Part shown: positions 35,929-51,215 of the stretch, piece by piece
How the letters are laid out: each line of letters opens with the position of its first letter
How positions within the stretch are numbered: position 1 is the stretch's first letter
Assembly: GCF_028368935.1 (NCBI RefSeq)
Contig: NZ_JAQNDK010000004.1
Span: forward strand, 1,116,001-1,180,000
Reading direction: 5' to 3'
Length of the DNA stretch: 64,000 nt
Origin: Sorangium aterium
Lineage (GTDB): Bacteria; Myxococcota_A; Polyangia; Polyangiales; Polyangiaceae
Notes under the pieces: model-generated
What the model was told of the DNA's origin: nothing
The model's database searches: none
Seen by the model: only the letters and a program-made list of their open reading frames with translations
Made by a program: the position numbers and the translations under genes

Positions 35929-36289
35929 GTGCGCCTCGCTTTCCTCCACGAGTGATTCCCCGGGTTTGGCGGCGAGCGTGGGTCCGCGCCTGGCTGGAGC
36001 GAATCGGGCCTCTCCCTCTTTCCTCGTCGGTGTTCTTCGTGCGTTCGTCTTCGCAGGGAACGTATCGCGCCAGGGAGAACTGCTGTAGGATGCCCCGCAC
36101 AGGAGGCTGACCCGTGGACCTGGGGACCGGATGTCACGTCGCACGGGCGCGGGTGGATGGCGGATCGCGCGGCGCGAGCGCTGGGCGGTGGGGGCCTCGT
36201 GGGGGCGCCGGTGCACGCCTCGCGCTGCTGGTCGCGGCCGTCCGTGCGGTCTCCGTGATGGGGGGGCGTGCCGCGCTTCCGGAAAGCCG
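35929..36289. other. 361-bp divergent intergenic region between cupin and first tandem kinase
   Basis: Must contain the promoters of the cupin gene (minus) and of the first kinase (plus). Open frames pass through it on both strands but none looks coding. No clear sigma-70 or sigma-54 boxes were found. Confidence 0.45.
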
Positions 36290-38782
36290 ATGATGCCCTC
36301 GCCGAAGAGCTCGACATTGCTCGCGTCCGGTGTGCTGATCGACAAGAAGTACCGGCTCCTGCGCCAGATCGGCGAGGGGGCGATGGGCGTCGTCTGGGCG
36401 GCGGTGAACGTGGCGACCGCCCGCGAGGTGGCGCTGAAGCTGATCCACCGGCCGGAGACCGAGTTCCGGCTGCGGCTGCAGCGCGAGGCGCGCAACAGCG
36501 GGGCGCTGCGGCACCGGAACGTCATCGACATCTACGACATGGGGGAGACCGAGGCCGGGGAGCCGTTCCTGGTGATGCAGCTGCTCACGGGGGAGACCGT
36601 GGCCGAGCTGCTCGCGCGGCGGCGTCGGCTCGACCCGCCCGTGGCGGCGTCGATCGGGCGGGACGTGGCGAGGGGGCTCGCGGCGGCGCACGCGATGCAC
36701 ATCATCCACCGCGATCTGAAGCCGGCGAACATCTTCCTGCACCGCGAGCCGGACATGGACGAGCCGGTGGTGAAGGTGCTCGATTTCGGGGTCGCCAAGA
36801 ACCTCTCGGTCAACGACGGCCTGCACACGGTGCAGGGCGGCGCGGTGGGGTCGCCCCTCTACATGAGCCCGGAGCAGGTGAGGGCCGAGCCGAACGTCGA
36901 TCACCGGGCCGACATCTGGGCGCTCGGCGTGGTGTTGTTCGAGATGCTGACGGGCATGCGCCCGTTCCAGGGGGACGCGCAGGCGGTGTTCATGGGGATC
37001 TTGACCGGCGAGATCCCCACCGTGTCCAAGTACCTGAGGCGGGTGGACCAGGGGCTCGTCGACCTGATCGCCCGCTGCATGCGCAGGGATCGCGCGGAGC
37101 GGATCGGCTCTGCGGCGGAGGTCGCGGCGCTGCTCGATCGGTACACGGAGCGCGGCGTGGGCCCGGGCAGGGACGCGGCGCTGCGGCAGTCGTCGCCGGA
37201 GGGGCGGGAGGCGCCCCCGGACGAGGACGTGGACGCCGGCTGGCAGGAGTCGCAAGGCGGCACGGTGGCGCTCGCGGCGCAACCCGGGTCGGCGCTCGCG
37301 GCGCAGCCTGCGTCGGTGGCGCAACCCGGGTCGGTGGCGCAACCCGGGTCGGCGCTCGCGGCGCAGCCTGCGTCGGTGGCGCAACCCGGGTCGGTCGTGA
37401 ACCGGCCGGGGAGCGTCGAGGTGGGCGCGGGAGCGCTGCCGCTGGCGCTGCTCGGTGGGGGGCCGCGGGCCCCGGTTCCGGTGCAGGAGTCGCCTGAGGC
37501 GCACAGGTCGCCGTCGCTGGGGCCGGGGCAGGTGGCTGCGGGACCAGCGTCGGGCATGAGCCGCGTGGCGGATGAGGGGCCAGCGTCGGGAGCCGGCCAT
37601 GCGGCGGGCGCGGTTCCTCGGCGTCCGGGCAGCTCGGGCCAGCACCTGGCCGCGGCGTCCGTGGTGCGCGCCCCGCGGGACGAGGACGTGGCGACCTTGC
37701 CCCTCACGCGGCAGAACGCGGATGCGGCCGGGCCCGCGGGGCCGCTCCCTGGGTCGGGGGCGTATCCGGCGGCGGGGCCTGCCGCCGCTGCGCCGCGGAC
37801 GTCGTCGTCGGTGGCGGCGTTTGCAGCGCCGGAGCCGTCCCAGGCGAGCGCGGCGCAAGCCGCTCCGGTGCAGCCTGCGCCCGTGGCGGCGCCGCAGCAG
37901 GGCTCCTGGGCGATGACGGTGCGCATGAACGCACCGCCGATGCCCGAGGGCCGGGTGGGGCCGGGTGGCCTCGGCCCTGCTGGCGCGCTGCCGCCGGGAG
38001 GCATCGCCGCGCAGCCGAGCTGGAGCTCGGCGCCGGCCGCGAGGCCCGGCCCGGAAGCGGGCGCGAGCGCCTCGGACTCCAGGCCGGGCGGGGCCACGGC
38101 AACGGGCGCGCCGCGGCAAGCGGGAAGCTCGTCGACGACCCCGCTCGTCTCGAACCACCCGTCGGTCCACCAGGTCGGGGTGCACCAGGCCCAGGACGCT
38201 CACGAGCGGGCCCCGCACGGTGAGGAACCGAGGCGCAAGCGTACGGCCGCGACGCTCGCGATCGTGGCTGCCGCGCTGTCGCTGATCGTCGTGGGCATGC
38301 TCATCTCGCTGAGGTCGCCGGGGCCATCGTCGGCCGCGCCGGAAGCGTCCGGGAGCGCGATGCCGTCATTGGACCGCGCCGGAGACACGGTCGCCGCGCC
38401 GGAGCGCGGGGAAGCGCCGCCGCGGAACGAAGAGCCCTCGGCGCAGGAGCCCTCGGTGCCATCCGCGGAGGCGCCGCCGGGCTCCTCGGCGTTGGCGCCG
38501 CCCGTGCCGTCGGCGCCGAGCGCCCTTCCGGCGAGCAGCGCAGCCGCTGCGGCGGCGCCAGGAGGCGGGGCGGGCGCGGTGGCGCCAGGCGGCGGGGCGG
38601 GCGCGGCGGCGGGGACGGCGAGCGGCGCGAAGCCGGGCAGCTCGACGCTCGGGGCGCCTCCCGCGACATCGCAGCCTGCGACGTCGCAGCCCGCGAAGGC
38701 TGCGCCGCCCCCGGCCCCGGCCTCGTGCGCTCATCTCAGGTTCTTGGCGAAGAAGCAGTGCGAGGCGAAGCTCAAGAAATAG
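36290..38782 (+). CDS. membrane-anchored Ser/Thr kinase, tandem copy 1
   Basis: 830 residues from ATGATG at 36290. Kinase domain at residues about 20-285: GEGAMGVVWAAVN, VALKLIHRPE (Lys), IIHRDLKPANIFLH, VKVLDFGVAKNLSV and GSPLYMSPEQVRAEPNVDHR. A long Ala/Pro/Gln linker with tandem repeats follows. One membrane helix lies near residues 652-674 (LAIVAAALSLIVVGMLISL), then a periplasmic tail of about 155 residues that ends CAHLRFLAKKQCEAKLKK. The kinase acts inside, and the tail with two cysteines may sense envelope signals. The catalytic domain is close to that of the third kinase (40641), suggesting duplication. Confidence 0.94.
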   Translation: MMPSPKSSTLLASGVLIDKKYRLLRQIGEGAMGVVWAAVNVATAREVALKLIHRPETEFRLRLQREARNSGALRHRNVIDIYDMGETEAGEPFLVMQLLTGETVAELLARRRRLDPPVAASIGRDVARGLAAAHAMHIIHRDLKPANIFLHREPDMDEPVVKVLDFGVAKNLSVNDGLHTVQGGAVGSPLYMSPEQVRAEPNVDHRADIWALGVVLFEMLTGMRPFQGDAQAVFMGILTGEIPTVSKYLRRVDQGLVDLIARCMRRDRAERIGSAAEVAALLDRYTERGVGPGRDAALRQSSPEGREAPPDEDVDAGWQESQGGTVALAAQPGSALAAQPASVAQPGSVAQPGSALAAQPASVAQPGSVVNRPGSVEVGAGALPLALLGGGPRAPVPVQESPEAHRSPSLGPGQVAAGPASGMSRVADEGPASGAGHAAGAVPRRPGSSGQHLAAASVVRAPRDEDVATLPLTRQNADAAGPAGPLPGSGAYPAAGPAAAAPRTSSSVAAFAAPEPSQASAAQAAPVQPAPVAAPQQGSWAMTVRMNAPPMPEGRVGPGGLGPAGALPPGGIAAQPSWSSAPAARPGPEAGASASDSRPGGATATGAPRQAGSSSTTPLVSNHPSVHQVGVHQAQDAHERAPHGEEPRRKRTAATLAIVAAALSLIVVGMLISLRSPGPSSAAPEASGSAMPSLDRAGDTVAAPERGEAPPRNEEPSAQEPSVPSAEAPPGSSALAPPVPSAPSALPASSAAAAAAPGGGAGAVAPGGGAGAAAGTASGAKPGSSTLGAPPATSQPATSQPAKAAPPPAPASCAHLRFLAKKQCEAKLKK
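37280..37393 (+). repeat. imperfect tandem repeat in kinase linker
   Basis: Two long copies plus partial copies of a unit starting GCAACCCGGGTCGG and continuing through GCGCAGCCTGCGTCGG, in frame, coding AQPGSALAAQPASV-type repeats in the cytoplasmic linker. Confidence 0.9.
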
Positions 38783-39033: not shown

Positions 39034-40635
39034 ATGCAGTCCCCTTCGGCCCCTGCCGCGCCGCCGCCAGGTGCGCTCATTTGCGGCAAGTACCGCCTTC
39101 TCCGGCGGATCGGCGAAGGGGCGATGGGCGTCGTCTGGGCAGCGCACAACGAGGCTACCTCTCGCGAGGTCGCGCTCAAGCTGCTGGTGCGGCCCGACCC
39201 GGAGCTCCGCGTCCGGCTGCTGCGGGAGGCGCGCGCCTGCGGCGCCGTGAGCCACCGGAACATCGTCGATATCTACGATGCTGCCGAGACGGAGAACGGC
39301 GACCCGTTCCTCGTCATGCCGCTGCTCTCCGGAGAGACGCTCTCGTCCTTGCTCAAGCGCAAGCGCAAGCTGGAGATCCACGATGCCTCACGCATCGCTC
39401 GGGACATCGCGCGCGGCCTCTCCGCCGCGCACGAGCGGGGCATCATCCACCGCGATCTGAAGCCGTCCAACATCTTTCTTCACACCGAGCCTGGCGACAG
39501 CGATGCCACCGTCAAGATACTCGACTTCGGCGTGAGCAAGTTCCTCGCGGGTCCTCAACAGGCGAGGACCGCGACAGGCATCCTCATCGGCTCGCCGGCG
39601 TACATGAGCCCGGAGCAGGTGCGGGCGCAGAGCGATATCGACACGCGCGCGGACCTCTGGGCGCTCGGCGTCGTGATGTTCGAGATGCTCACGAGCTGGC
39701 GGCCGATCCAGGGCAAGGCGCATGAGCTCCTGAGAAACGTGCTGCACGGCGACATCCCGGCGGTGTCCCAGTCCGTCTGGCAGATCGATCCCGGCCTCGA
39801 TGCCCTCGTGACACAATGTCTCCAGCGCGATCGCGAGAAGAGACCGCGCTCGGCGGCCGAGGTCGCGGCGGCGCTCGAGCCGTTCGTCACGCCGCCGGCG
39901 CCGCAGCGCGTGCCCTCGAGGCCGGGGTCGTCGCCGGACCTGCGGCACGAGATCCCGCAGCAGCTCGGGCGAGGGTCGTGGGGTGGGGCGGCTCCTGGGC
40001 GATCGCCGACGCCGGCGACCGGGACGCCGCTCCCGGCGTCCATGGCGCATCTGCAGGCCCTGCCGGGACACCCGAACACGCCGGTGTCAGGGCCTCGAGG
40101 GGCGATCGCGGCGCCGGCGCAGCCGGCGGTGGTCCCGTGGCCGGCGCGGCCGTCGGCGGGCGCGTGGCCGGAGCAGCCGGCGGCGGGCGGGGGCATGGCG
40201 ACACCGGGGCAACCGGGGCATCGGGAGCGGATGCCGAGCAATCCTCTGCTGGGGGACCGCGGGACGCTCAAGATGTCACCGGAGCAGGCGGTCGCCTATC
40301 GATCACCGGCCAGCGCGCCGCTGGCGCGTCCGGGCGCTCCCCTCGATCAGGCGCTGTCGCTCGGCGGTACGGTGCCGCTCGATCCGCTCCGCGAGCTGAA
40401 GAGGCCGCCTTCTGTGCCCGTCCGCTCGCCTGTCGTGTGGATCGCGATGGCCGTGGTCTCGGCGGCGATCCTCCTGGGGATCGGCATGGCCGCGGGGTAT
40501 CTCTTGCGGCGCGGTGAGGTGGAGCTCCCGAGGGACCCCGGCGGAGAGCGTGCTACCTTCCGCGCCGTCCTCTCGTTTGCGATAGGTAAAGCGACCTCGC
40601 CCATCGCGGCGATGCGCCTCGACCCACCCTGCTGA
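39034..40635 (+). CDS. membrane-anchored Ser/Thr kinase, tandem copy 2
   Basis: 533 residues. The kinase domain starts at ICGKYRLLRRIGEGAMGVVW, with [38 protein letters not shown] and GSPAYMSPEQVRAQSDIDTR. It lacks the GGAV insert of its neighbours after the DFG. A Pro/Ala-rich linker leads to one membrane helix near residues 473-495 (VVWIAMAVVSAAILLGIGMA) and a short outside tail of about 35 residues, without the Cys pair of the other two. It is the most divergent of the three. It ends five bases before the next kinase gene, so the two are an operon. Confidence 0.94.
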   Translation: MQSPSAPAAPPPGALICGKYRLLRRIGEGAMGVVWAAHNEATSREVALKLLVRPDPELRVRLLREARACGAVSHRNIVDIYDAAETENGDPFLVMPLLSGETLSSLLKRKRKLEIHDASRIARDIARGLSAAHERGIIHRDLKPSNIFLHTEPGDSDATVKILDFGVSKFLAGPQQARTATGILIGSPAYMSPEQVRAQSDIDTRADLWALGVVMFEMLTSWRPIQGKAHELLRNVLHGDIPAVSQSVWQIDPGLDALVTQCLQRDREKRPRSAAEVAAALEPFVTPPAPQRVPSRPGSSPDLRHEIPQQLGRGSWGGAAPGRSPTPATGTPLPASMAHLQALPGHPNTPVSGPRGAIAAPAQPAVVPWPARPSAGAWPEQPAAGGGMATPGQPGHRERMPSNPLLGDRGTLKMSPEQAVAYRSPASAPLARPGAPLDQALSLGGTVPLDPLRELKRPPSVPVRSPVVWIAMAVVSAAILLGIGMAAGYLLRRGEVELPRDPGGERATFRAVLSFAIGKATSPIAAMRLDPPC

Positions 40636-40640
40636 GCTCG

Positions 40641-42617
40641 ATGTCCACTTCCTTCACGCAGATCGCTGCCGGCCTGGTGATTGCCGAGAAGTACAAGCTG
40701 GTGCGGCGGCTGGGAGAGGGATCCATGGGCGTCGTGTGGGCGGCGCTCAACCTGTCCACCTCGCGTGAGGTGGCGTTGAAGCTGATTCACCGCCCGGATC
40801 CCGAGCTCCGGAGGCGGCTCCAGCGCGAAGGGCGCAATGGCGGGGCGCTGCGGCACCGCAACGTCATCGACATGTATGACATGGGGGAGACCGAGTTCGG
40901 CGAGCCCTTCCTGGTGATGCAGCTGCTCACCGGAGAGACGCTCGCGGACCTGCTCGTGCGCAGGCGGCGGCTCGACGCGGACGTGGCGGCGTCGATCGGG
41001 CGAGACGTGGCGAGGGGGCTCGCGGCGGTGCACGCGCTGCACATCGTCCACCGCGATCTGAAGCCGGCGAACATCTTCCTGCACCGCGAGGCCGACGCGG
41101 ACGAGCCGGTGGTGAAGGTGCTCGATTTCGGGGTCGCGAAGAACCTCTCCGTGAATGACGGCATCCGCACGGCGACGGGCGGCGCGGTGGGATCGCCGCT
41201 TTACATGAGCCCGGAGCAGGTGAGGGCCGAGCCGAACGTCGACCACCGGGCCGATATCTGGTCGCTCGGCGTGGTGCTGTTCGAGATGCTGACGGGCATG
41301 CGGCCGTTCCAGGGGGACGCGAGGGCGGTCTTCACCGGCATCCTGACGGGCGAGATGCCCAAGGTCTCCCGCTACGTGCGGCGGGTGGACCCGGGGCTCG
41401 TGGAGCTCGTGGCGAGGTGCATGGCGCGCCACCGGGACGAGCGGATCGGATCGGCGGCGGAGGTGGCGGACCTCCTCGAGGGGTACACGGCTGCGGGCGC
41501 GAGGGCGGGATTTGCCGTCGGGGGCGGGGGTGGGGGGCAGATGGCGGCCATGGAGGCGCACGCATTTCCCGGCGCGGCGGCGTCAGGGGCGCCGGTGTCG
41601 CCGATGGCGAGCGGGGTGCCGCCGGCGGGGGTGCCGGTGTCGCCGATGGCGAGCGGGGTGCCGCCGGCGGGGGTGCCGGTGTCGCCGATGGCAAGCGGCG
41701 CGCCGGTGTCGCCGATGGCGAGCGGGGCGCCGGTGTCGCCGATGGCAAGCGGCGCGCCGGTGTCGCCGATGGCGAGCGGGGCGCCGGAGCGGGAGTGGAA
41801 CGCCGAGCTGACCCAGAGGCTCGAGCCGGAGGCCATGGCGAGCGCTGAGGCAGCGCTGGGCGCGTCGCCCGCGTGGGGCCACGGTGAGCCGGGGAAATCG
41901 ACGACCGCGCCGCTCGTGTCCGGCCCTCAGGCAGGCCGAGGCGCGCAGCCGTCGCCCTGGGCAGCGCGCGCCACGCCGGTGCCTCTGCAGGCGCCGCAGA
42001 CGCCGCCGCGGCGGCAGGGAGGCTGGAAGCACCTTCCTGGCCCGGCCATCGCGGCGCTCGCCGCCGGCGCGGCTGGTCTGGTCGGCGCAGCGCTCTTCCT
42101 CGTGTTGCGCTCGCCAGCGCCGCCCGAGAACGCGGCCGGGATCGAGACGATGCCGGAGGCCGGGCTCGAGAGCGCCGCGAGCGCGGAAAGGCCGCCGGAC
42201 CCGCCGCCTCCGCCGGCGACCGCTGTGCCGCAGGCTTCGGCGGCGGCTGAGCCGCCCAGCGTGGATGAGCCGGTGGATGCCGGTGGGGCGAACAGCGCGC
42301 CGGACGCGGGGCCGGAGGGCGTGGAGCCGGCGTCGGTCGAGCGGAGTCAGCCGGCGGTGGAGGCGCCGAATCCGCCGGCGGCGGTGTCGGCGGTCGCGGC
42401 GTCGCCACCTGCTGCGGCGCCTGCGCCGGCGCGGTCGGTCGTCGCGGCGCAGCCCCGGATTCAGCCTCCGGCGCAGCCTGCGCCCGCAGCGTCGCGGCCT
42501 GCACAGCCACCGGCGGTCCGGCGGCAACCCGCGGATCCGTGCGCGGGCAAGACAGGGTTCATGCGGGCGAACTGCCTGCGGGACCAGGCGAAGAAGAAGG
42601 ATCCCTACGCTCCCTGA
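40641..42617 (+). CDS. membrane-anchored Ser/Thr kinase, tandem copy 3
   Basis: 658 residues. Kinase motifs: GEGSMGVVWAALN, VALKLIHRPD, IVHRDLKPANIFLH, VKVLDFGVAKNLSV and GSPLYMSPEQVRAEPNVDHR, nearly the same as copy 1. The linker contains in-frame PVSPMASG repeats. One membrane helix near residues 472-494 (IAALAAGAAGLVGAALFLVL) is followed by a periplasmic tail of about 160 residues ending CAGKTGFMRANCLRDQAKKK. The terminal Cys-x(n)-Cys with lysines matches the style of copy 1 and may be a small disulfide-closed sensor. It begins five bases after copy 2. Confidence 0.94.
   Translation: MSTSFTQIAAGLVIAEKYKLVRRLGEGSMGVVWAALNLSTSREVALKLIHRPDPELRRRLQREGRNGGALRHRNVIDMYDMGETEFGEPFLVMQLLTGETLADLLVRRRRLDADVAASIGRDVARGLAAVHALHIVHRDLKPANIFLHREADADEPVVKVLDFGVAKNLSVNDGIRTATGGAVGSPLYMSPEQVRAEPNVDHRADIWSLGVVLFEMLTGMRPFQGDARAVFTGILTGEMPKVSRYVRRVDPGLVELVARCMARHRDERIGSAAEVADLLEGYTAAGARAGFAVGGGGGGQMAAMEAHAFPGAAASGAPVSPMASGVPPAGVPVSPMASGVPPAGVPVSPMASGAPVSPMASGAPVSPMASGAPVSPMASGAPEREWNAELTQRLEPEAMASAEAALGASPAWGHGEPGKSTTAPLVSGPQAGRGAQPSPWAARATPVPLQAPQTPPRRQGGWKHLPGPAIAALAAGAAGLVGAALFLVLRSPAPPENAAGIETMPEAGLESAASAERPPDPPPPPATAVPQASAAAEPPSVDEPVDAGGANSAPDAGPEGVEPASVERSQPAVEAPNPPAAVSAVAASPPAAAPAPARSVVAAQPRIQPPAQPAPAASRPAQPPAVRRQPADPCAGKTGFMRANCLRDQAKKKDPYAP
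41584..41790 (+). repeat. in-frame repeats coding PVSPMASG
   Basis: Two interleaved unit lengths (27 and 45 bases) built on GCCGGTGTCGCCGATGGCGA are repeated six times inside the kinase linker; several copies are near-identical at DNA level, so the array is probably young and variable. Confidence 0.93.
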
Positions 42618-42674: not shown

Positions 42675-44372
42675 TCACCGAGACGAGAAATCCAGGAGCA
42701 TGCTGGCCTGACCCGCACCGCCCTCATGGTCGACATCGCTGCCAGCGCCGCCTGCGCCGGGCACGCCCAGTTGGACCATGACGCCATCGAGGGACGGGAC
42801 GGTGTCCGGCGTGCCCAGGAAGGCGATGGCGAGGGAATGGCCGCCCTGACCGCCGCCGCCCCGGCCGCCGGAGCCTCCCTGGCCTCCCTGCCCGCCGCGG
42901 CATCCTTCGATCACATCATTGCCCCGACCCATCCCGCCCGGCCCTCCATACGCGCCAGGCCCGCCGTCCTGGCCGCCGGTGCCGTCGCCGCCATTGCCAC
43001 CCTTACGCGCGATCAGCCGGACACCGTCACGGAACGTGAGTGTTGCGTTGACGCTCACCAGGGCGATGCTCGACCCGCCGGGAGAGCCACCCCTGCCGCC
43101 AGCACCGCCGCAGCCACCCGTGCCGCCGTTGCCGCCGCTGGCGCCGCCACGGGTGCCAAAAGGGCATTGGGTGCTCCCGCGGGTGCCGCCGCCACCCCCG
43201 CCCCCCTGGGCAGTCTTCCCGCGTTGGCCGTCGCCGCCGGACAACCCGGCGTAGCCGGCGCTGGAGAGCTGGCCGATGCCGTGTGCCCCTGCGCCCGGTG
43301 CGCCGTCCTCACCCGCTCTGCCTGACTGGCCCTGGGTACACCCTCTGCTTTCGGCAACGTATGCGCCAGCGTTGGGATTGTCCTCCCCACCGGGAGAACC
43401 GCTGCCGCCATCGGTCGCGCGGTCCTCGAGGCCACGCCCGCCCCTCCCGCCGGTCGAGTCGTCGGAGGTGTCCGCAGTACCGCACGTATCGGGCTGCGGC
43501 GCGGCAGTGGATACGTCGTTTGCCGAGCATGCAGCGTTCCCCCGGGTGCCCTGGGGGAGTCGCGCGGGTTGCGGAGGAGGGGCCGCCCCCGGGGCACCGG
43601 GCGCCGCATCGCCCGCCTCGAAGGTGCACCGAGCCAGGTCGATGGCGCAGCGCTCGGCGATCGCTGCGATGGCGGAGGTCCCCGCGTCGTCCGGATCGAT
43701 CGCCGGAGCGATGACATGGAGATTCTCCAGGTGCACCGTCTCGCCTTCGGCGCGCATGGCCAGGGGCACAACCCCGGGCGGCGCCGTGAGGGTGGTCTTG
43801 TTGGCCTCCCCCCATTGCCAATGAGCGTCGCAATCGAGGCCACCGTAGAGGGTGATCCCCGCCGTCACGGTGAGCGATTCGTTGAACGTCTGGGCGCACG
43901 CGTACACGCGGCGCGCCTCCTTGTCCTCGATCTGCGCGGCGCGCTGGATGGCGTCCGCGAGCGTCTTCACCGGCGCATCCGGGCTCCCGTCACCCCCGTC
44001 GGCCGCCGTGGCCGACACGAACACGCCGCAGGTCGCGTCCGCGCTCCAGCGCTGCCTGTCGCTGGGCACGCACCCCACGGGCGTCGGCCCTCCCCCGGCA
44101 CCCCCGGCCCCGGTGGCACCTCCGCTCCCGGCCGCGCCTCCGGTCCCGCCGGCGCCGCCGGTCCCCGTGGCACCTCCGCTCCCTGATGCGCCGCCGGTCC
44201 CCGCGCCCTCAGCCTCTCCACCCACCCCGCGCCCGCCGCCGCATTCATGCAGCTCGCTACAGTCGGGGCCGAGGCAGCTCGCCGCTGGGAGCACCGCTGC
44301 GATCGAGGCCAGGGTCAGCGTCGAGGCCCCACACGCGGCAAGCCGCATCGCCCTCTGTGTTCGTCGGTTCAT
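42675..44372 (-). CDS. glycine-rich beta-helix-like lipoprotein, copy 2
   Basis: The ATG at 44372 begins MNRRTQRAMRLAACGASTLT; the signal peptide ends in a lipobox around PAASC. A GTGGASGSGG-type linker precedes a domain with SPDAPVKTLADAIQRAAQIE, RRVYACAQTFNESLTVTAGI and TLYGGLDCDAHWQW, the pattern of right-handed parallel beta-helices (DUF1565-like). The C-terminal half is a long glycine-rich region (GGNGGTGGCGGAGGRGGSPG, GGQGGSGGRGGGGQGGHSLA) like PE_PGRS or collagen-like surface proteins. Probably exposed on the outer surface. It starts 11 bases after its PEGA partner and is paralogous to 45743-47362. Confidence 0.88.
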   Translation of the reverse strand: MNRRTQRAMRLAACGASTLTLASIAAVLPAASCLGPDCSELHECGGGRGVGGEAEGAGTGGASGSGGATGTGGAGGTGGAAGSGGATGAGGAGGGPTPVGCVPSDRQRWSADATCGVFVSATAADGGDGSPDAPVKTLADAIQRAAQIEDKEARRVYACAQTFNESLTVTAGITLYGGLDCDAHWQWGEANKTTLTAPPGVVPLAMRAEGETVHLENLHVIAPAIDPDDAGTSAIAAIAERCAIDLARCTFEAGDAAPGAPGAAPPPQPARLPQGTRGNAACSANDVSTAAPQPDTCGTADTSDDSTGGRGGRGLEDRATDGGSGSPGGEDNPNAGAYVAESRGCTQGQSGRAGEDGAPGAGAHGIGQLSSAGYAGLSGGDGQRGKTAQGGGGGGGTRGSTQCPFGTRGGASGGNGGTGGCGGAGGRGGSPGGSSIALVSVNATLTFRDGVRLIARKGGNGGDGTGGQDGGPGAYGGPGGMGRGNDVIEGCRGGQGGQGGSGGRGGGGQGGHSLAIAFLGTPDTVPSLDGVMVQLGVPGAGGAGSDVDHEGGAGQASMLLDFSSR

Positions 44373-44383
44373 GGTTCCTCGGC

Positions 44384-45442
44384 TCAGAACACGCCGCCGG
44401 CGACGAGCCCGCCGCCGCCTGGCATCACGAGCGGAAAGAGATGCACCCGCTGCTCGGGCTCGCTCGGCGCTCCAGCGAGCCATGTGTAGCCGAGCGTCCC
44501 CACCGCGCTCGCGCCTGCGCCGATGAAGCTCCAGAGCGCCAGGTTGCTGAAAAGATACTGGTCGTCGACCAGCGAGCGCAGCTTGCTGCACTGCTGCTTC
44601 TGGTCGCTGCCAGCGGGGGTCGCGCAGTTGACGGATCCGGCCTCCATGGCGTCGATCACGCTGTTCTGCCGCGCCGCGTCGCTCGCTTTGCCGTTGGCGA
44701 CGAGCGTGAACACGACGCCCGCGACCGTTCCGACGCCGGTCGCGATGCCGCCTCCGACGAGCACCGCGGTCCTCCCGCCGCCCTGCGACACCCCGGGCGC
44801 CGGCGAGGCGCTCCGTTCAGCACCGGCGCCCCTCGCGTCCGGCGCCGGAGGGCGCTCCAGCGCGATGACCACCGTCTCCGTGCCCCCCGCGGGCGCGTCG
44901 ACCGGCCGGGTCTGGGACACATACCCGTCGAGCTTCGCTCCCACCTCATGCCGTCCCGGATCGAGGAACACGGGATCCGCGAGCGGCGCTCGCCCGACGA
45001 TCGCCCCGTCGACCGTCACCTCGGCGCCGCCCGGCGCGACCTCCACGGTGACGGCCGCGACCTGCGCCCGCGCCTCCTGCAGCGACACCTCCGCGCGCTG
45101 CCGCTCCTGGACCTTCGTCGCGGGGACCTCGCGGAGGTAGCGCGTGAGGTACTCGGCCGCGTCGCGCGGCTTGCCCACCCGGAGGCAGGCCACGCCCAGG
45201 TTCGAGGCGATCTGGTAGTGCGGCTTGAGGCCCCACGCCGCGAGGAACGCCGCGTGCGCCTCGGCCCACTTCCCCGCGTTGGCCGCCTTCACCCCGTCTG
45301 CGAAGAGCTGGCGCGCCCTGTCCGTCAGCGCGTCGCTCTCCTGCGCCTCGGCCCGAGGGGGCGCCGGCTGCGCCTCGGCGGCGGGCGCCAGCAAGGCGAT
45401 GACTACGCTCAGGGTCCACGGCAGCGGGCGGTTCCTCATCAT
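44384..45442 (-). CDS. PEGA-domain TPR protein, copy 2
   Basis: 352 residues with signal peptide (LPWTLSVVIALLAPAAEA). A TPR-like helical part (QLFADGVKAANAGKWAEAHA, YQIASNLGVACLRVGKPRDA) is followed by a PEGA domain (TVEVAPGGAEVTVDGAIVGR, DPVFLDPGRHEVGAKLDGYV), a small beta fold common in envelope proteins. Two hydrophobic helices follow (TAVLVGGGIATGVGTVAGVV, LALWSFIGAGASAVGTLGYT) with a loop holding two Cys between. The protein ends in GGGLVAGGVF; a C-terminal Phe as in outer-membrane proteins may be chance. It forms a two-gene unit with 42675-44372. Confidence 0.88.
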   Translation of the reverse strand: MMRNRPLPWTLSVVIALLAPAAEAQPAPPRAEAQESDALTDRARQLFADGVKAANAGKWAEAHAAFLAAWGLKPHYQIASNLGVACLRVGKPRDAAEYLTRYLREVPATKVQERQRAEVSLQEARAQVAAVTVEVAPGGAEVTVDGAIVGRAPLADPVFLDPGRHEVGAKLDGYVSQTRPVDAPAGGTETVVIALERPPAPDARGAGAERSASPAPGVSQGGGRTAVLVGGGIATGVGTVAGVVFTLVANGKASDAARQNSVIDAMEAGSVNCATPAGSDQKQQCSKLRSLVDDQYLFSNLALWSFIGAGASAVGTLGYTWLAGAPSEPEQRVHLFPLVMPGGGGLVAGGVF

Positions 45443-45742
45443 GGTAAGTCCGGCGTTGCTTCAGGCAGCTGCGTCGGGCGCAAGGGAAGGGTACGGCAGC
45501 ACCTTGCCTACCCTGGAGCTCGAACCGTACCTCTTCTGTGCGATCAGGGAAGCATTTGATGCTCCCGTTTCATACAGGGCGTGATGGTGCAGCAGCTCCG
45601 CAGCGTCCCGCGGCCGTTCCTGCGTCGCAAGGGTGTTGACGCGCGGCTTCATGCATGGAGAGGCACGCCCGGAGCACCGGAGGCGGCTGCTTCCGTCTTG
45701 AGCTCGTCCTCCTGGTTCAAAGGTCAACGTGGCCCGTGGATT
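45443..45742. other. 300-bp gap between the two PEGA/glycine-rich units
   Basis: No convincing gene; an 88-codon frame on the minus strand has no family resemblance. It may hold a separate promoter for the second unit. No strong hairpin found. Confidence 0.4.
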
Positions 45743-47362
45743 CTAATCGTCTGATCGAGAGGTGGTCGAGCAAGGCGTATTTTTAGCAAAATCCCAGCAC
45801 TCTTGGACGAGGCCGTTCGCGCCTGATGCACCGTTGTTCGGAGCAGCGCCCGCCCCTGGGCCGCCCGTACCTGCATCGCCGGGGGTGAATGAGCCCGGGC
45901 TGATCACCCGCAACCCTTTCCCGCGGAAGGCGATGCCGAGCGAGTGACCGCCATGGCCACCGCCGCCCGGGCCGCCATTGCCGCCCGGCCCACCGCGCCC
46001 GCCCTCGCAGCTCTCCTTGGCATCACCCGCCCGGGCCCCAAAGGCGCCACCTAAGCTCCCGTTTCCACCTAGCTGGCCTTCTCCTCCCGGCCCGCCATTC
46101 CCGGCATCACCAGCAACAAGGCTCACTCTGTCGAGAGAGACCGTCGCATCGACAACGACAAATGCGATGCTGGAGCCTCCGGGATGCCCCCCGTCGCCCC
46201 CTTGACCCCCACAGCCCCCGCTGCCCCCTGCGCCGCCGCTGGCGCCGGGCAGCAAGACCTTGACGCTACCTGAACACGCCGCAGCGGTCCCCCTGGCGCC
46301 GCCTCCGCCGCCCCCGCCTTGACCAGGCTTGCCGGTGCCACCTTGCTGTGCGAGCACCCCGGTGTAGCCATTCGCATCGACGGTGCCCAGGCCTTCGGAA
46401 GGACCGGCTGGCTTACCGGGATCACCGGCGGCGCCATTCTTACCATCCGTGCACGACTGGTCAGCCGTTTCCTTGATTCCGCCCGCTCCTTCGGCCGGCT
46501 CGGATGTGGCCGGCTTGCCGGACGTGCCGTCGCCGGCGTCGGAGCGCTCGGGACTCGTGGTGGTACCCGTCACGGTACCGCCATCGCCCCCGTTCCCTCC
46601 TTCGGATTCCCCACCCGCACACCGTGTGATTGGACCCGCTGGTCCACCGTGCGTAGCTCCTGGGCTGCATACCGCCAGGCCCGGATCGCCATTGATGCCG
46701 TCAAGCGTCGAATCGCGCGGGATGGCGCGCGCCTGCGCTCCACTCTTGGCATTGCCGGCCTCGAGCCTGACGTTGACGATGTCGATCGTCCCGCCGTTCG
46801 TCAGCAGCGCGGTCGACGACTTCCCCGGAGAGTCGGCGTCCGCGGCGACGACGTCGACGTTTTCCAGCCGATTGTTGCCGCCGTTCAGCGTGAGGGCAAT
46901 GACGTCAGCCCCTCCCTGGAGCGTCGTCCGCGCGTCGGGTGACCAGGTCCAGGCTCCGTCGCAGGCCGTGAAGCCACCGTAGATCTTCACTCCACCGTTG
47001 AAGGTCACGCCGGTGGCCTCGGAATACGTCTCTCCCATCTCGCCGCACGCATAGACCCGCTTCGGGTTCTTCGCGGCGGCCTGGGTGAAGCTCTTGAACG
47101 GCTGTTCCTTGCTACCGTCCCCACTGGCGGCCGCGCTCGACCGCACGAAGACTCCACAGGATCCGTCCGGAGGTAAGCTCTTGTCGGTGAGGTCGCAGTT
47201 CTTCGCCGGGTCGGGTTGGCCACCTGCATCACCGCCTGCGGTGCAAGCGGGGCCTTCGCAGCCCTCGGCTGGATCATAGCGGACCACGCATCCGACCGCC
47301 TCGGCGCCCATGGCTGCTATCCCCAGAAAGAGCGCAGCAGCGAGACGGGCACGATGACGCAT
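45743..47362 (-). CDS. glycine-rich beta-helix-like lipoprotein, copy 1
   Basis: The ATG at 47362 (MRHRARLAAALFLGIAAMGA) is preceded by GGAG; the signal peptide ends at AEAVGC. Next come SKEQPFKSFTQAAAKNPKRV, YACGEMGETYSEATGVTFNG and GVKIYGGFTACDGAWTWSPD, aligned in order with the same segments of copy 2, then NNRLENVDVVAADAD. The second half is glycine-rich (GGTGKPGQGGGGGGGARGT, GGSGGCGGQGGDGGHPGGSS, GGHSLGIAFRGKG). The pair of copies shares the motif GGSSIA[FL]V and GGHSL[GA]IAF, so they are true paralogues. It follows its PEGA partner after 31 bases. Likely surface-exposed; function unknown. Confidence 0.88.
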   Translation of the reverse strand: MRHRARLAAALFLGIAAMGAEAVGCVVRYDPAEGCEGPACTAGGDAGGQPDPAKNCDLTDKSLPPDGSCGVFVRSSAAASGDGSKEQPFKSFTQAAAKNPKRVYACGEMGETYSEATGVTFNGGVKIYGGFTACDGAWTWSPDARTTLQGGADVIALTLNGGNNRLENVDVVAADADSPGKSSTALLTNGGTIDIVNVRLEAGNAKSGAQARAIPRDSTLDGINGDPGLAVCSPGATHGGPAGPITRCAGGESEGGNGGDGGTVTGTTTSPERSDAGDGTSGKPATSEPAEGAGGIKETADQSCTDGKNGAAGDPGKPAGPSEGLGTVDANGYTGVLAQQGGTGKPGQGGGGGGGARGTAAACSGSVKVLLPGASGGAGGSGGCGGQGGDGGHPGGSSIAFVVVDATVSLDRVSLVAGDAGNGGPGGEGQLGGNGSLGGAFGARAGDAKESCEGGRGGPGGNGGPGGGGHGGHSLGIAFRGKGLRVISPGSFTPGDAGTGGPGAGAAPNNGASGANGLVQECWDFAKNTPCSTTSRSDD

Positions 47363-47393
47363 TCTGAATCTCCTCTGTTCCACGTACCCCAGC

Positions 47394-48446
47394 TCAGAAC
47401 GTTCCGCTGACCAGGAGCCCGGAAGCCCCCGTTCCCAGGAGCGGCACCACTTGCACGGCCGGACGCGATTCGGTCGGCCTCACCGTCACGAGCCCATAAA
47501 CAAGCGTTCCAACCCCGATGGCTCCGCCCGCCACAAAGCTCCAGAACGCTGAGTTCGTGAGATCCACCTTGGCGAACACGGTGTCCTTCAGCTTCGCGCA
47601 TTTTGACGAGCTGATGTCAGGACACGAGGCGAACCCGTCGCCTTCCACGACCAATTCCTGCCTGAGCTTCTCGGCGTCCCCCGCCCGCCCGTTGGCCAGA
47701 ACCGTGAGCACCACGCCCGCCGCTACGCCCGCGCCGGCCGCGATCCCGCCGCCCACGAGCACCGCCGTCCGCACCTTGTCGCGCGGCATCTCTGACCTCG
47801 GAGGAATCGACGTGCCGACGCTCCCTCCGATCTCGGCGGACGGCGTGCGCTCAAGCTGCAGGGCCACTGTCTCCGTGCTCCCCGCCACCGTTGCAATCGG
47901 CCGCATGGCAGGCGCGTGCCCATCGAGCTTCGCGCCGATCTCATGCTTCCCTGGATCGAGAAACACCGGATCCGCCAGCGGCGCCTTGCCCACGACCGCC
48001 CCGTCGACGGTCACCTCCGCCCCTGCCGGCGCCACCCGCACCGTGACGGACGCGATCTTCGCGAGCGCCTCCTTCAGCGACGCCTCCGCGCTCTGTCGCT
48101 CCTTCACCTTTGTGGCAGGCGCCTCGCGGAGGTACCGCGTCAGGTACTCCGCGGCTTCGCGGTTCCTGCCCAGCTTCACGCAGGCCACCCCCAGGTTCGA
48201 GGCGATCTGATAATGCGGCTTGATGGCCCACGCCGCGAGGAACGACGCACGCGCATCGGCCCATTTCCCTGCCGCTGCAGCCTGTCTCCCCTCTTCATAG
48301 AGCTGCCGCGCCTTGTCCGTCAGCGCGTCGGTCTCCTCAGCGACGGCCTGGGTGGCCGGCTGTTGCGCGCCGGCCACCTGCGCCGTCAACGCCACGGCCA
48401 TGCTCCAACTCCATAGCAGCGGACGCTTCTTCATCGTCGGAGTCAT
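47394..48446 (-). CDS. PEGA-domain TPR protein, copy 1
   Basis: 350 residues (or 346 from the ATG at 48434). Signal peptide (LLWSWSMAVALTAQVAGA), TPR-like part (QLYEEGRQAAAAGKWADARA, YQIASNLGVACVKLGRNREA) and PEGA domain (TVRVAPAGAEVTVDGAVVGK, DPVFLDPGKHEIGAKLDGHA), then two hydrophobic helices separated by a loop with two Cys (FASCPDISSSKCAKL). It ends in GLLVSGTF. Very close to copy 2 across the whole length. The start codon shares TGATG with the stop of the preceding gene, so it is translated from the same message as the GTPase partner. Confidence 0.88.
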   Translation of the reverse strand: MTPTMKKRPLLWSWSMAVALTAQVAGAQQPATQAVAEETDALTDKARQLYEEGRQAAAAGKWADARASFLAAWAIKPHYQIASNLGVACVKLGRNREAAEYLTRYLREAPATKVKERQSAEASLKEALAKIASVTVRVAPAGAEVTVDGAVVGKAPLADPVFLDPGKHEIGAKLDGHAPAMRPIATVAGSTETVALQLERTPSAEIGGSVGTSIPPRSEMPRDKVRTAVLVGGGIAAGAGVAAGVVLTVLANGRAGDAEKLRQELVVEGDGFASCPDISSSKCAKLKDTVFAKVDLTNSAFWSFVAGGAIGVGTLVYGLVTVRPTESRPAVQVVPLLGTGASGLLVSGTF

Positions 48447-50206
48447 CAGAACTCTGGCTTCCCTTCGGGGAGAGGCGGCTCGGAGGTGCGCGACGGCGGC
48501 ACCTTACCCGCTCTCGGCTTCGGGTCAATGCGCCCCGTCGCGGCCCCACCTACCTTGGTGTTCCTTGTCCGCCCCGACGACTGCGTCTTCGGCTGGGGCT
48601 CATCCTGCTGCGGCTGCTCCTGCCCCGCCTGCGGCTTCGCCGTCGCCTCCGGCCGCGCCGTCGTGGAGGGCGAGCCTGTCGTCGCCGCCGCGCCGGACTC
48701 GGCGCTCGGCCCCGGCGCCGCCGCGCTCCCCGCAGGCAGCGCCACGCCCGGCGCCGTCGCTTCCGGCGCCGCCGTCCCGCCCCCGGGCGTTCCCTGCGAT
48801 ACCAGCACCGCGACCATGCCCGCCACGGCCACGAAGCCGAGCCCCGCGACGGCCCATATCCACGTCCGCGACGACGCCGGCTTCTCCACGATGACCGGGA
48901 TCTCGTCGCGCTCCTCCCCGCCGACGCTCGGCAGCGGCGCCGCCGCCGGCGCGCTCCACGCCCCGCCGCTCGCCGCCCGCCCCGCAACGCCGCCCGCCGC
49001 CCGCGCCGGAACGGCGTTCCCCGGGCCCGCCTGGCCCATCCGCACGGGCCCCGTGCCCCCGGCCTCGCCCGCCGTCAGCGCCGCGCTCCCGAGCAGCTTC
49101 TCCGAATCGATGACCAGCGTCCCCTTCGGCCCGACCTGCTGCGACGCCGGCCCCGCCCCGACGCCCTTCTGCGACGGCGGCATCGACCCCGGCGCCCGCC
49201 GCTCCTGCAGCGCCACCCCCGACATCGCGCCCGCCACGCCAAGCGGCCCCGTCCCGCCCTGCTGCGCCGCCAACCGCTCGCGCCATCCGCCGGCGAACTG
49301 CGGCTTCTCCTCCACCTCGCCCTGCGGCCGCGCCCCGAACATCCCCCGCGCGATCTCCGCCTCGTCCTCCGCGACCTCCTCGATCCGGATCAGCACCCCG
49401 TGCCGATCCTCCATCGTGACGTCGCGCTCTCGCACGAACCGCACCGAGACCCCGCCCGGGATATCCGCCTCCCGCCCGCTCGTGATCGACGTCCACTTGA
49501 TGTTCGACCGGTACAGCACCGTCGCGATCTTCGCCGCCGCGAGCGCGATCGACCCGAAGGGCTCATCCGGCTTGTGGACGATCACCACCCGCTTCGGCTG
49601 CGCCCCCTCGTCGGCCACCCAGTCCCACGTCGCGCCGCTCCGCCGGAGATACGGCAGATCGCCGAACTCCTCGACATACCGCTCCAGCACGTGCGCCACC
49701 CGCTCCGGCGCCTCCCGCACCGCACTCACGTACTCGCGGTAGAACATGCCCGCCGACGAGTTGACCTCCGTCGCGTTCATCACGTGCCGGTAAAACGTCG
49801 CCGCTGCCTCGAGCAGCGTCGTATACCCGAGGTCCCGATCCACCGCGACGATCCCGTGCGCGAACGGCGGGTTTCCCCGCCCGGCGTGGTCGACTGTCCC
49901 GCCGATCCGGAACCCGAAGATGAGCCCCATCGCCCCGTGGCCAGGCTCGTGCTGCGTGTCATCCCTCGACAGGTTGCCGATCGCGAACGCGTGCGTCGCC
50001 CCCGTCGCAGGCTCGATGTACTTCATCAGCCGCGCGAGGTGGCTGAACTGCGTCGTCGTGAGGGGCCCTTGCGGCACCTCCGGGCAGTACATGAAGTCGA
50101 TCTGGTGCCCCGGGATGTTCCCGTGCAGCACGTGGTACCACGCCGCGTCCGCCGGCGCGCGGTACCGCGGGATCACATACCCCGAAGCGCCCTCGCTACC
50201 GTACAT
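48446..50206 (-). CDS. single-pass membrane protein, partner of the small GTPase
   Basis: 586 residues. The cytoplasmic N-terminal domain of about 250 residues is compact (YHVLHGNIPGHQIDFMYCPE, THAFAIGNLSRDDTQHEPGH, AMGLIFGFRIGGTVDHAGRG, FAHGIVAVDRDLGYTTLLEA). It recalls, without proof, the N-terminal domains of GTPase-associated proteins in bacterial conflict and signalling systems. A linker, one membrane helix (residues about 448-470, WIWAVAGLGFVAVAGMVAVL) and a Pro/Ala/Gln-rich periplasmic tail of about 116 residues follow. Its start overlaps the GTPase gene by 11 bases, which argues that the two products form a complex. I do not recognise an established family. Confidence 0.75.
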   Translation of the reverse strand: MYGSEGASGYVIPRYRAPADAAWYHVLHGNIPGHQIDFMYCPEVPQGPLTTTQFSHLARLMKYIEPATGATHAFAIGNLSRDDTQHEPGHGAMGLIFGFRIGGTVDHAGRGNPPFAHGIVAVDRDLGYTTLLEAAATFYRHVMNATEVNSSAGMFYREYVSAVREAPERVAHVLERYVEEFGDLPYLRRSGATWDWVADEGAQPKRVVIVHKPDEPFGSIALAAAKIATVLYRSNIKWTSITSGREADIPGGVSVRFVRERDVTMEDRHGVLIRIEEVAEDEAEIARGMFGARPQGEVEEKPQFAGGWRERLAAQQGGTGPLGVAGAMSGVALQERRAPGSMPPSQKGVGAGPASQQVGPKGTLVIDSEKLLGSAALTAGEAGGTGPVRMGQAGPGNAVPARAAGGVAGRAASGGAWSAPAAAPLPSVGGEERDEIPVIVEKPASSRTWIWAVAGLGFVAVAGMVAVLVSQGTPGGGTAAPEATAPGVALPAGSAAAPGPSAESGAAATTGSPSTTARPEATAKPQAGQEQPQQDEPQPKTQSSGRTRNTKVGGAATGRIDPKPRAGKVPPSRTSEPPLPEGKPEF

Positions 50207-51215
50207 TGGGCCTGACCTGCTGCGGCACCGGCGGGGCAGGGAGCGCCGCGGTCCGCGACAACGCCGAGCTCCCGCTGATGTCCTGCTTCATTCGCTGCAG
50301 GAGCTGAGGATCATACGCGTTCTTCGGGAGGATCTTCTCCACGAAGTGCGAGAACAGGTGATGTGTGCTGTGCCCGTAGCTCGCCGACCCGACGAGCACG
50401 CGAATGTCGATGTTGTTCTTGTACCGCTCCAGGCTGTCGATGAGCGACTTGTAATAGCCGCGCGCCTCCCGCTCCACCTCGGCCGGCGTCCCGGAGAGAA
50501 CATCGGACTTGTTGATGAAGAGCACGACCGCCTTGCACGAGGCCAGCGTCTTCGGGCTGAAGAAGAACTGCAGCGACTGCGGCTGAAACTCCCGGAGCTG
50601 CTCCTGGATCCTCGCCGGCTCGATCTTCTGACCGTCCTTGCCCGCCAGATCCACGACCATCAGGAGCCCATGGATCTCCTCCATGATGAGCTCCTGCTGC
50701 GCGTCCACGATGTGCTCGCCGCCCCAGTCGCCGATCTCGAACACGTGCTCTGTCAGCACCTCTTTCGTGAGGACGTGGCTGACAGTCCGCTCGTAACGCT
50801 CGATCTTCGTCCCCTGCAGCGTGCCCAGATCCACGAGGGGATTCGCCCACTTGAGCGTGAGCGACGTCTTGCCGGTCCACTTGATGCCGAGCGTCAGGAT
50901 CTTGTACCGCTTCTGCGTGATCTTCGGCCGGCTCTCGAGCTCGCTCTTGTACCAGTCGATCTCCTTCTGCTGGGCATCGAGCCAGTCGACCTTCTGGCGA
51001 TCGTCGTTCCTCGCGAGCTCGAGCGCCTGCTGGAGCTGCCCGTACTGCGCCCTCATCTGATCGAGCTGGCCCTTGGCCTGCCGGAGCGCCTCGATGTGCT
51101 GGTTCGCGTCCTGGAGCTGCCGCTTCAGCTGCGTGGCCTGCATCAGCAGGAACACGGCGCCTGCGCCGCACGCCACCGCAATCAACCCGAGCACTATCGG
51201 TAGAACAACCTGCAT
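50196..51215 (-). CDS. membrane-anchored Ras-like small GTPase with coiled coil
   Basis: 339 residues. An N-terminal membrane helix (residues 3-25, VLPIVLGLIAVACGAGAVFL) is followed by a coiled coil (residues about 28-75, LQDANQHIEALRQAKGQLDQ). The GTPase domain has G1 GIKWTGKTSLT (110-120), switch region LGTLQGTKIER, G3 as DWGG (163-166) and G4 NKSD (235-238), with SASYGHS as a possible G5. A short Pro-rich tail ends the protein. It should bind and hydrolyse GTP at the inner membrane as a switch. A trans-membrane anchor is unusual for Ras-like proteins, which include the myxobacterial polarity switch MglA. Confidence 0.88.
   Translation of the reverse strand: MQVVLPIVLGLIAVACGAGAVFLLMQATQLKRQLQDANQHIEALRQAKGQLDQMRAQYGQLQQALELARNDDRQKVDWLDAQQKEIDWYKSELESRPKITQKRYKILTLGIKWTGKTSLTLKWANPLVDLGTLQGTKIERYERTVSHVLTKEVLTEHVFEIGDWGGEHIVDAQQELIMEEIHGLLMVVDLAGKDGQKIEPARIQEQLREFQPQSLQFFFSPKTLASCKAVVLFINKSDVLSGTPAEVEREARGYYKSLIDSLERYKNNIDIRVLVGSASYGHSTHHLFSHFVEKILPKNAYDPQLLQRMKQDISGSSALSRTAALPAPPVPQQVRPNVR

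Follow-up and report, generated by a model that had tools for sequence, protein, structure and literature searches.

The best-studied Ras-like switches of bacteria use roadblock regulators, and the longin-type GTPase-activating proteins (GAPs) known to us are eukaryotic. Rag/Gtr GTPases carry a C-terminal roadblock domain and form a heterodimer of two Rag subunits. GTPase-regulator pairs known in bacteria are MglA-MglB, Rup, the conservons and the DO-GTPase/GAP1 systems (PMC7159879, PMC4316618). Among eukaryotic proteins, an arginine in the longin domain of SMCR8 is the catalytic finger (PMC8213707), and an arginine finger between the longin strands beta4 and beta5 has been proposed for monomeric DENN GAPs (PMC12803157, a preprint). 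This report concerns a locus in a 64,000-nucleotide stretch of Sorangium aterium (contig NZ_JAQNDK010000004.1, positions 1,116,001–1,180,000; termed the window), which lies on contig G000:C4 of a 13.5 Mb genome. The locus encodes a Ras-like GTPase, an adjoining membrane-spanning protein (termed the partner), PEGA/TPR proteins with secreted lipoproteins, and Hanks-type kinases of one clade.

The best reading, to which a probability of about 0.5 is given, is a membrane switch of GTPase, GAP and kinase, coupled to a cassette of exchangeable envelope genes. In some soil myxobacteria with large genomes, the GTPase, the partner and the kinase clade stand beside changeable envelope proteins in every locus that could be judged, which suggests a link between the envelope and an internal switch that has not been described. 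Literature searches yielded no title or abstract opening describing this GTPase-partner-kinase locus.

The GTPase-partner locus

The genes are as follows (coordinates are those of the window).

50196–51215, minus strand: GTPase, Ras superfamily by sequence, 339 aa
48446–50206, minus strand: partner, 586 aa, no Pfam match; described from an AlphaFold model, structure matches, conservation and hydropathy
47394–48446, minus strand: PEGA1, with a signal peptide (by eye), TPR, a PEGA domain and two hydrophobic stretches (Pfam, hydropathy)
45743–47383, minus strand: Gly1, secreted lipoprotein, glycine-rich (24% Gly), lipobox AVGC, 15 Cys
44384–45442, minus strand: PEGA2, paralogue of PEGA1, with a signal peptide (by eye), TPR and a PEGA domain (Pfam)
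42675–44372, minus strand: Gly2, lipoprotein, 565 aa, glycine-rich (25% Gly), lipobox AASC
40641–42617, plus strand: STK2, Hanks-type kinase, 658 aa, membrane helix at about 470–488; Pkinase E = 2e-46
39034–40635, plus strand: STK1, Hanks-type kinase, 533 aa; Pkinase E = 2e-49
36131–38782, plus strand: third kinase, kinase domain from 36308, 79–80% identical to STK2

The original prediction listed six same-strand genes, and a check of the open reading frames of the window shows all six on the minus strand where it had placed them. The overlaps and the gap that it described are also present: the GTPase and partner genes overlap by 11 bp, the partner and PEGA1 genes have TGATG in common, and a 300-bp gap separates Gly1 from PEGA2. 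The start of Gly2 is most likely at 44372, which gives a gene of 42675–44372 rather than 42675–44591, since an ATG at this position precedes a lipoprotein-type signal peptide and lies 11 bp after PEGA2. An alternative ATG start of Gly1 is possible about 21 bp inside. Signal peptides and lipobox-like sites were judged by eye.

The six-gene extent overlooked the recurring convergent kinases next to the array. Three plus-strand kinase genes (kinase domains from 36308, 39034 and 40641) are convergent with the array, and the STK2 gene ends 57 bases from Gly2. The unit is larger than six genes and the convergent kinase genes belong to it. The GTPase, partner and PEGA genes are consecutive in 6/6 Sorangium main loci, one of which (L021) ends after its first PEGA gene; the order of these genes is therefore beyond chance.

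Pairing of the GTPase with the partner

As judged by hydropathy and motifs, the GTPase starts with a membrane helix near its N-terminus (about residues 7–25), followed by a coiled-coil-like stretch and a G domain. Its sequence places it in the Ras superfamily: the Pfam match to Gtr1_RagA is above the cut-off (25.2 bits vs. 22), in agreement with the earlier claim of a membrane-anchored Ras-like GTPase. At E up to 0.01, ten aligned relatives match Roc (10/10), Gtr1_RagA (10/10) and Arf (9/10), and the Roc and Arf profiles score about as high as Gtr1_RagA. RAP2A is the sole PDB sequence match (E = 0.006, with E up to 0.01). Motifs that we take to be G1 (GxxxTGK(T/S)), G3 (DWGG followed by Glu), G4 (NKSD) and G5 (GSA) are kept in 19 loci; the Glu of G3 stands at the position of the catalytic Gln of Ras. 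A Rag-type roadblock domain gave no Pfam match, the GTPase ending 25 residues past its Gtr1_RagA match, and no second Rag-like subunit was found, with one GTPase gene in each locus compared. Padloc matches (E = 0.004 and 0.027) were set aside: they fall in the low-complexity tail and in the coiled-coil part.

The GTPase is found in 6/6 genomes of the genus. A pattern-based scan of the genome collection, which detects close relatives only and may omit the window's own record, yielded eight loci, all in Sorangium, Minicystis and Byssovorax. In a profile search of 377 genomes of the phylum, with at most five candidates per genome scored, 6 genomes gave 12 GTPase loci (E up to 1e-8) and 9 gave 15 partner loci. 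Each of the 12 GTPase loci is directly upstream of a partner. Three partner loci (G068, G174, G334) have no GTPase; they are distant, with 21–26% identity, and are in draft genomes. A partner match in G137 (E = 7e-4) was taken as chance: it is opposite a predicted gene (L031 84–1694) and was not recovered with the profile.

Twenty coupled loci were compared: the six Sorangium main loci (the window and L021–L025), second copies L026 and L032, Minicystis L027, Byssovorax L028 (L074 is the same contig), and ten loci of genus g141 (L063–L072). GTPase distances and partner distances are correlated (Pearson 0.95, Spearman 0.69; 0/2000 label permutations as high; 19/20 pairs), a correlation that is obtainable from shared ancestry alone. 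The pairing is strict, and the GTPase and the partner are a paired, co-inherited unit.

The partner and its loop arginine

The partner is predicted to consist of a longin-like and a small alpha/beta domain (about residues 1–295, presumably cytoplasmic), a linker, a membrane helix (450–468) and a 118-residue low-complexity tail. Tail length is 88–142 residues across the 20 coupled partners. The single helix, predicted by hydropathy, agrees with the single-pass topology claimed earlier; it is weak by the same measure in L064 and L068. A GKPxF end of the tail is present in many partners but is not claimed as conserved: it is absent, e.g. in L032, L063, L065, L069, L070 and L072. No Pfam match to the window partner was found at E up to 1, 12 members gave only two stray Pfam matches, in one member each (best E = 0.018), and the partner profile had no PDB sequence match at E up to 10.

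AlphaFold2 with 23 sequences gave five agreeing models (mean pLDDT 80.6–85.0, pTM 0.84), which replace an earlier run with 12 sequences where 1/5 models was good. The predicted order in the N-terminal domain is two strands, a helix, three strands and helices, i.e. the order of a longin domain, followed by the small alpha/beta domain. In the structure comparison with the better model, the first 14 entries are all TagF or longin/DENN (Z 7.9–5.0). TagF 9t0n is at the top (Z 7.9, rmsd 4.4, 202 aligned, model range 20–284), and further matches are the Lst4 longin domain (Z 7.8), a Lokiarchaeal roadblock-longin protein (7.3), FLCN, GATOR1/SEA and C9orf72-SMCR8 complex entries (6.9–6.1; the subunit of the matched chain is not shown), TagF 6iz8 (5.4) and a complex with DENND10 (Z 5.0, rmsd 7.2). 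The fifteenth row is PA0076 (Z 4.9), which we take to be a TagF, and unrelated folds begin at Z 4.3. Both sub-domains of the partner are covered by the TagF and DENND10 entries. The structure matches listed include no roadblock protein, a negative that covers these entries only. From the model, the N-terminal domain is likely longin-like, with a predicted shape close to that of proteins which switch off nutrient-sensing GTPases in human cells; the likeness to TagF and longin/DENN, with Z up to 7.9, is suggestive only.

As a separate observation, TagF (9t0n, 6iz8) and longin/DENN entries group as matches of one model, a hint that TagF itself may be longin-like.

The model places R110 (motif DHAGR) between strands 92–100 and 114–122, i.e. 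in the beta4-beta5 loop, and R110 is a candidate arginine finger. It is kept in 20/20 GTPase-coupled partners, and in 3/3 uncoupled partners the loop is shortened and R110 is lost. All 23 partners have R124 and R245, irrespective of the presence of a GTPase, and these two residues may thus matter for the fold or for another function.

Distant partner homologues are found in two other families of the phylum (L029 13466–14584, L030 14233–15754, L073 8908–10425). They have no R110 loop, and no GTPase was found in their genomes.

The partner may instead be a TagF-like adaptor or repressor, an exchange factor or an effector of the GTPase, and not its GAP. The kinase would then turn the pathway on and the TagF-like protein would turn it off by binding, as in the kinase-TagF branch of type VI secretion control, where TagF represses a pathway promoted by the kinase PpkA (PMC5995506). 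The top structure match and the coverage of both sub-domains are consistent with this. However, a profile comparison by hhalign with ten TagF proteins gave a probability of 0.14%, which is the level of unrelated controls (10/15 TagF loci were used; five were dropped for a doubtful reading frame or as near copies), and none of 12 partner members has a TagF match in Pfam. TagF homology of the partner was rejected on these grounds. In addition, a separate TagF_N protein is present elsewhere in the window genome (G000:C1), the word “GTPase” is absent from the main text of PMC5995506, and R110 tracks the presence of the GTPase. These alternatives to a GAP role are considered unlikely.

A divergent double-GTPase/GAP1 conflict system was also considered, in which a GTPase is accompanied by a downstream GAP1-type protein, and the PEGA proteins and lipoproteins are surface sensor or effector parts. 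The described systems can have membrane helices and PEGA domains and, in one theme, protein kinases (PMC7159879), and the gene order, GTPase then partner, is the same. By hhalign, the stretch GR...AH of a GAP1-N2 protein (L075) is set against DHAGR...FAH of the partner, but not significantly; the idea of GAP1-N homology had itself come from a motif. No GAP1 match was found in any partner scanned with Pfam, though known GAP1-N2 proteins (three controls) were recognised, and there is no GAP1-N2 match in the window genome. Profile comparisons (hhalign, HMMER) are not significant, whether one GAP1-N2 protein of the phylum is used or three; GAP1-N1 was not compared. When the partner profile was run against 634 sequences (631 controls), one GAP1 protein came 8th, behind seven controls, a second came far lower, and the third was not among the proteins reported; neither GAP1 nor TagF profiles score better against the partner than unrelated controls. 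Nine window proteins scanned have no FNIII match, and a plasmid search found no GAP1 relatives. A DO-GTPase-type G domain gave no Pfam match in the GTPase or its relatives, in a scan without a working control, since the GTPase-like gene before the L160 GAP1 protein is also without a Pfam match. GAP1-N homology is not supported, and a system of this type appears improbable.

GAP1-N2 proteins themselves occur in two genomes of the phylum (L160 66–3369, L161 1399–2607, L075 1–879). One of the genes immediately follows another whose product has a GTP-binding-like P-loop but no Pfam match. By eye, the N-terminal region of these proteins could be longin-like and have a GR loop, but comparison of their sequences with the partner gave negative results.

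The kinase clade

In a tree built from 62 kinase domains of the coupled loci and 34 PEGA stretches, 27 form one clade (support 99/98). This clade contains solely kinases beside GTPase-partner pairs, from 15 loci, and includes STK1, STK2 and the third window kinase. Eight other flank kinases are outside it. Kinases of the clade, or related ones, are near the pair in 17/17 judged loci; L021, L023 and L026, which are at contig ends, were left out of this count, although L023 retains the C-terminal portion of an STK2-like kinase. The clade accounts for 15 of the 17; the other two are the So0157-2 and So ce26 arrays, whose far ends carry kinases with 58–92% identity to STK1/STK2. A kinase search of the window genome, in which 150 of 389 first-look candidates were scored, yielded 151 matches. 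Among the matches listed, the window kinases are 100, 80 and 58% identical to STK2, and the others at most 46%.

The linker of STK2 contains a tandem repeat of a short SGAPVSPMA-like unit (41589–41786), where antisense frames are likewise open, as is common in such high-GC DNA. In Byssovorax (L028 12404–13279) an extra, very divergent kinase gene is directly after the partner.

The PEGA/TPR and lipoprotein genes

PEGA1 shows Pfam matches to PEGA (E = 3e-8) and TPR_19 (E = 7e-5), and PEGA2 to PEGA (E = 2e-6), with TPR also supported; the description of both as PEGA/TPR proteins stands. PEGA2 has 66% identity to PEGA1 over residues 2–200. The glycine-rich proteins have no Pfam match (Gly2 was scanned as the longer open reading frame). 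The claimed duplication of a PEGA/TPR plus glycine-rich lipoprotein module fits the PEGA paralogues and the two lipobox-like sites, with the start of Gly2 corrected. PEGA1 and PEGA2 also have a short G-x-F type C-terminus (VSGTF and AGGVF), like an outer-membrane strand signal.

A PEGA gene is beside the GTPase-partner pair in 19/20 loci, and the contig of the remaining one (L065) ends 370 bp past the partner. The gap between pair and PEGA is below 1.9 kb in 18 loci; in L067 it is 3.1 kb, with a weaker PEGA-like gene nearer. The neighbourhood recurs in several layouts: the six Sorangium main loci have PEGA and the pair on one strand, and in the other 13 the PEGA gene points at the pair from the opposite strand. 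Next to PEGA comes a secreted protein with a lipobox in 18/18 judged loci (L021 and L065, cut by contig ends, were left out). This lipoprotein is glycine-rich in ten of them (24–25% Gly, about 3% Cys where computed; the window, L022–L025, L026, L064, L066, L068, L071) and cysteine-rich, with 7.5–14% Cys, in eight (L027, L028, L032, L063, L067, L069, L070, L072; the L063 gene extends into unread bases). Thus every judged locus has a lipoprotein, but of varying kind, and a glycine-rich fibre is not what these loci have in common.

Sorangium arrays have from two PEGA/lipoprotein pairs (window, L023, L025) up to four (L022 with L155, L024 with L156). The window GTPase is 91 and 90% identical to those of L023 and L025, and Gly1 is 77 and 66% identical. 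PEGA plus glycine-rich pairs are also present without a GTPase or partner in 6/34 PEGA stretches from the window genome (L091, L098, L107, L108, L109, L116). As L108 and L109 adjoin, these represent five places.

The original prediction centred the system on display or export of a glycine-rich surface fibre. This is not supported, given the cysteine-rich lipoproteins in 8/18 loci and the five places without a GTPase. The conserved neighbourhood that it proposed to look for does exist, with PEGA/TPR and a secreted lipoprotein beside the pair in every locus judged. It had also named, as evidence against a joint system, occurrence of the GTPase-partner genes and the surface genes apart from each other. 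One half of this was found: surface genes occur without a GTPase, as the five places show, and a GTPase-partner pair without PEGA genes was not found among the 19 loci judged.

That the PEGA/TPR and lipoprotein genes are chance neighbours, i.e. a common, duplicating envelope cassette beside a GTPase-partner-kinase unit with no functional link, would fit the 52 PEGA matches in the window genome, the five places, the copy number of 2 to 4 within the genus and the two unrelated lipoprotein types, but is very improbable. PEGA is at most 3.2 kb from the pair in 19/20 loci, whereas in the window genome 4.2% of places chosen at random have another PEGA gene within 8 kb (40 other PEGA genes, clustered by hand from the 52 matches), and the partner and PEGA1 genes have TGATG in common.

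Three of the stretches without a GTPase (L107, L108, L109; G000:C5 943000–959000 and C2 2245000–2271000) show same-strand PEGA plus glycine-rich arrays behind kinases of another clade. In L108 both kinase domains are identical over the tree columns.

The proposed switch

In the GTPase-GAP-kinase switch that is favoured here, the Ras-like GTPase on its membrane helix, with Glu for the catalytic Gln, would cycle with the neighbouring bitopic partner. The cytoplasmic longin-like domain of the partner would be the GAP of the GTPase and would supply R110 as arginine finger. One or more bitopic Hanks kinases of the one clade may set the switch by phosphorylation. The long periplasmic tails of the partner and the kinases may touch the PEGA/TPR proteins and lipoproteins of the locus, and through these contacts the GTPase would either read the envelope or set it. 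The PEGA/lipoprotein part would represent an exchangeable, amplifiable cassette, and the GTPase, partner and kinase the constant core. Sensing in the inward direction is tentatively preferred, since the core that stays constant is cytoplasmic and the part that varies lies outside.

Several points weigh against this switch. All structure matches of the partner are below Z 8, and the tool warns that such matches may reflect a common arrangement. The best Foldseek E-value, to TagF, is 0.003 with the better model and 3e-4 with the first. When the first model, the poorer one, was compared, a histidine kinase (4r3a, Z 5.5) appeared amid the longin entries and above one TagF. Sequence comparison relates the partner neither to TagF or GAP1-N2 nor to any PDB sequence. 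The R110 contrast sets one related family against three distant proteins, all of them from draft genomes. In eukaryotes most longin GAPs are pairs of two longin-DENN proteins (PMC12803157), and one partner is encoded here. PEGA genes are common in the window genome, with the 52 matches given above. In other genomes, sampling of kinases was confined to the surroundings of the pair, and scoring in the window genome covered 150/389 candidates.

A stronger form of the proposal is tentative. It would pair a true bacterial longin-type GAP in one operon with a membrane GTPase of Rag/Arf-like type and with a Hanks kinase clade of its own, as an inner-membrane counterpart of Rag-GATOR/FLCN that reads the envelope via amplifiable PEGA/lipoprotein cassettes.

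Comparison with known systems

The longin GAP complexes of Rag/Arf GTPases (GATOR1, FLCN-FNIP2, SMCR8-C9orf72) and Avl9 have a longin topology with an alpha/beta domain that is predicted for the partner as well. Like the targets of these GAPs, the neighbour of the partner is a Ras-superfamily GTPase with a Gtr1_RagA match. The proposed monomeric DENN GAPs, e.g. Avl9, have a beta4-beta5 loop arginine, as does the partner with R110 (PMC12803157, preprint). Unlike the longin GAP complexes, the window partner is bacterial, membrane-anchored and encoded by one gene, with no detectable sequence similarity and Z below 8.

TagF of type VI secretion, the best structural match, also works alongside a Hanks-type kinase pathway (PMC5995506). 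Unlike TagF, the partner has a membrane helix, a tail and an adjoining GTPase. In DO-GTPase/GAP1 systems the GTPase gene is directly before the partner gene, and links to membranes and PEGA are described (PMC7159879); the window partner differs from them in having no GAP1-N2 profile match.

The MglA-MglB, Rup and conservon systems consist of a small GTPase and a regulator gene, and are tied to signalling proteins (PMC4316618). MglA and the conservons use a roadblock protein (PMC4316618); the window GTPase has instead a membrane helix and a Hanks-type kinase, and a roadblock regulator gave no Pfam match in nine window proteins scanned or in 12 partners. What sets it apart from the known bacterial GTPase-regulator pairs is the partner family, the membrane anchoring and the kinase clade. 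If the proposed switch is real, one clade among the very many Sorangium kinases would be tied to one GTPase pathway, and a bacterial GTPase with its longin-like partner would offer a small testable model of how such GAPs work and arose.

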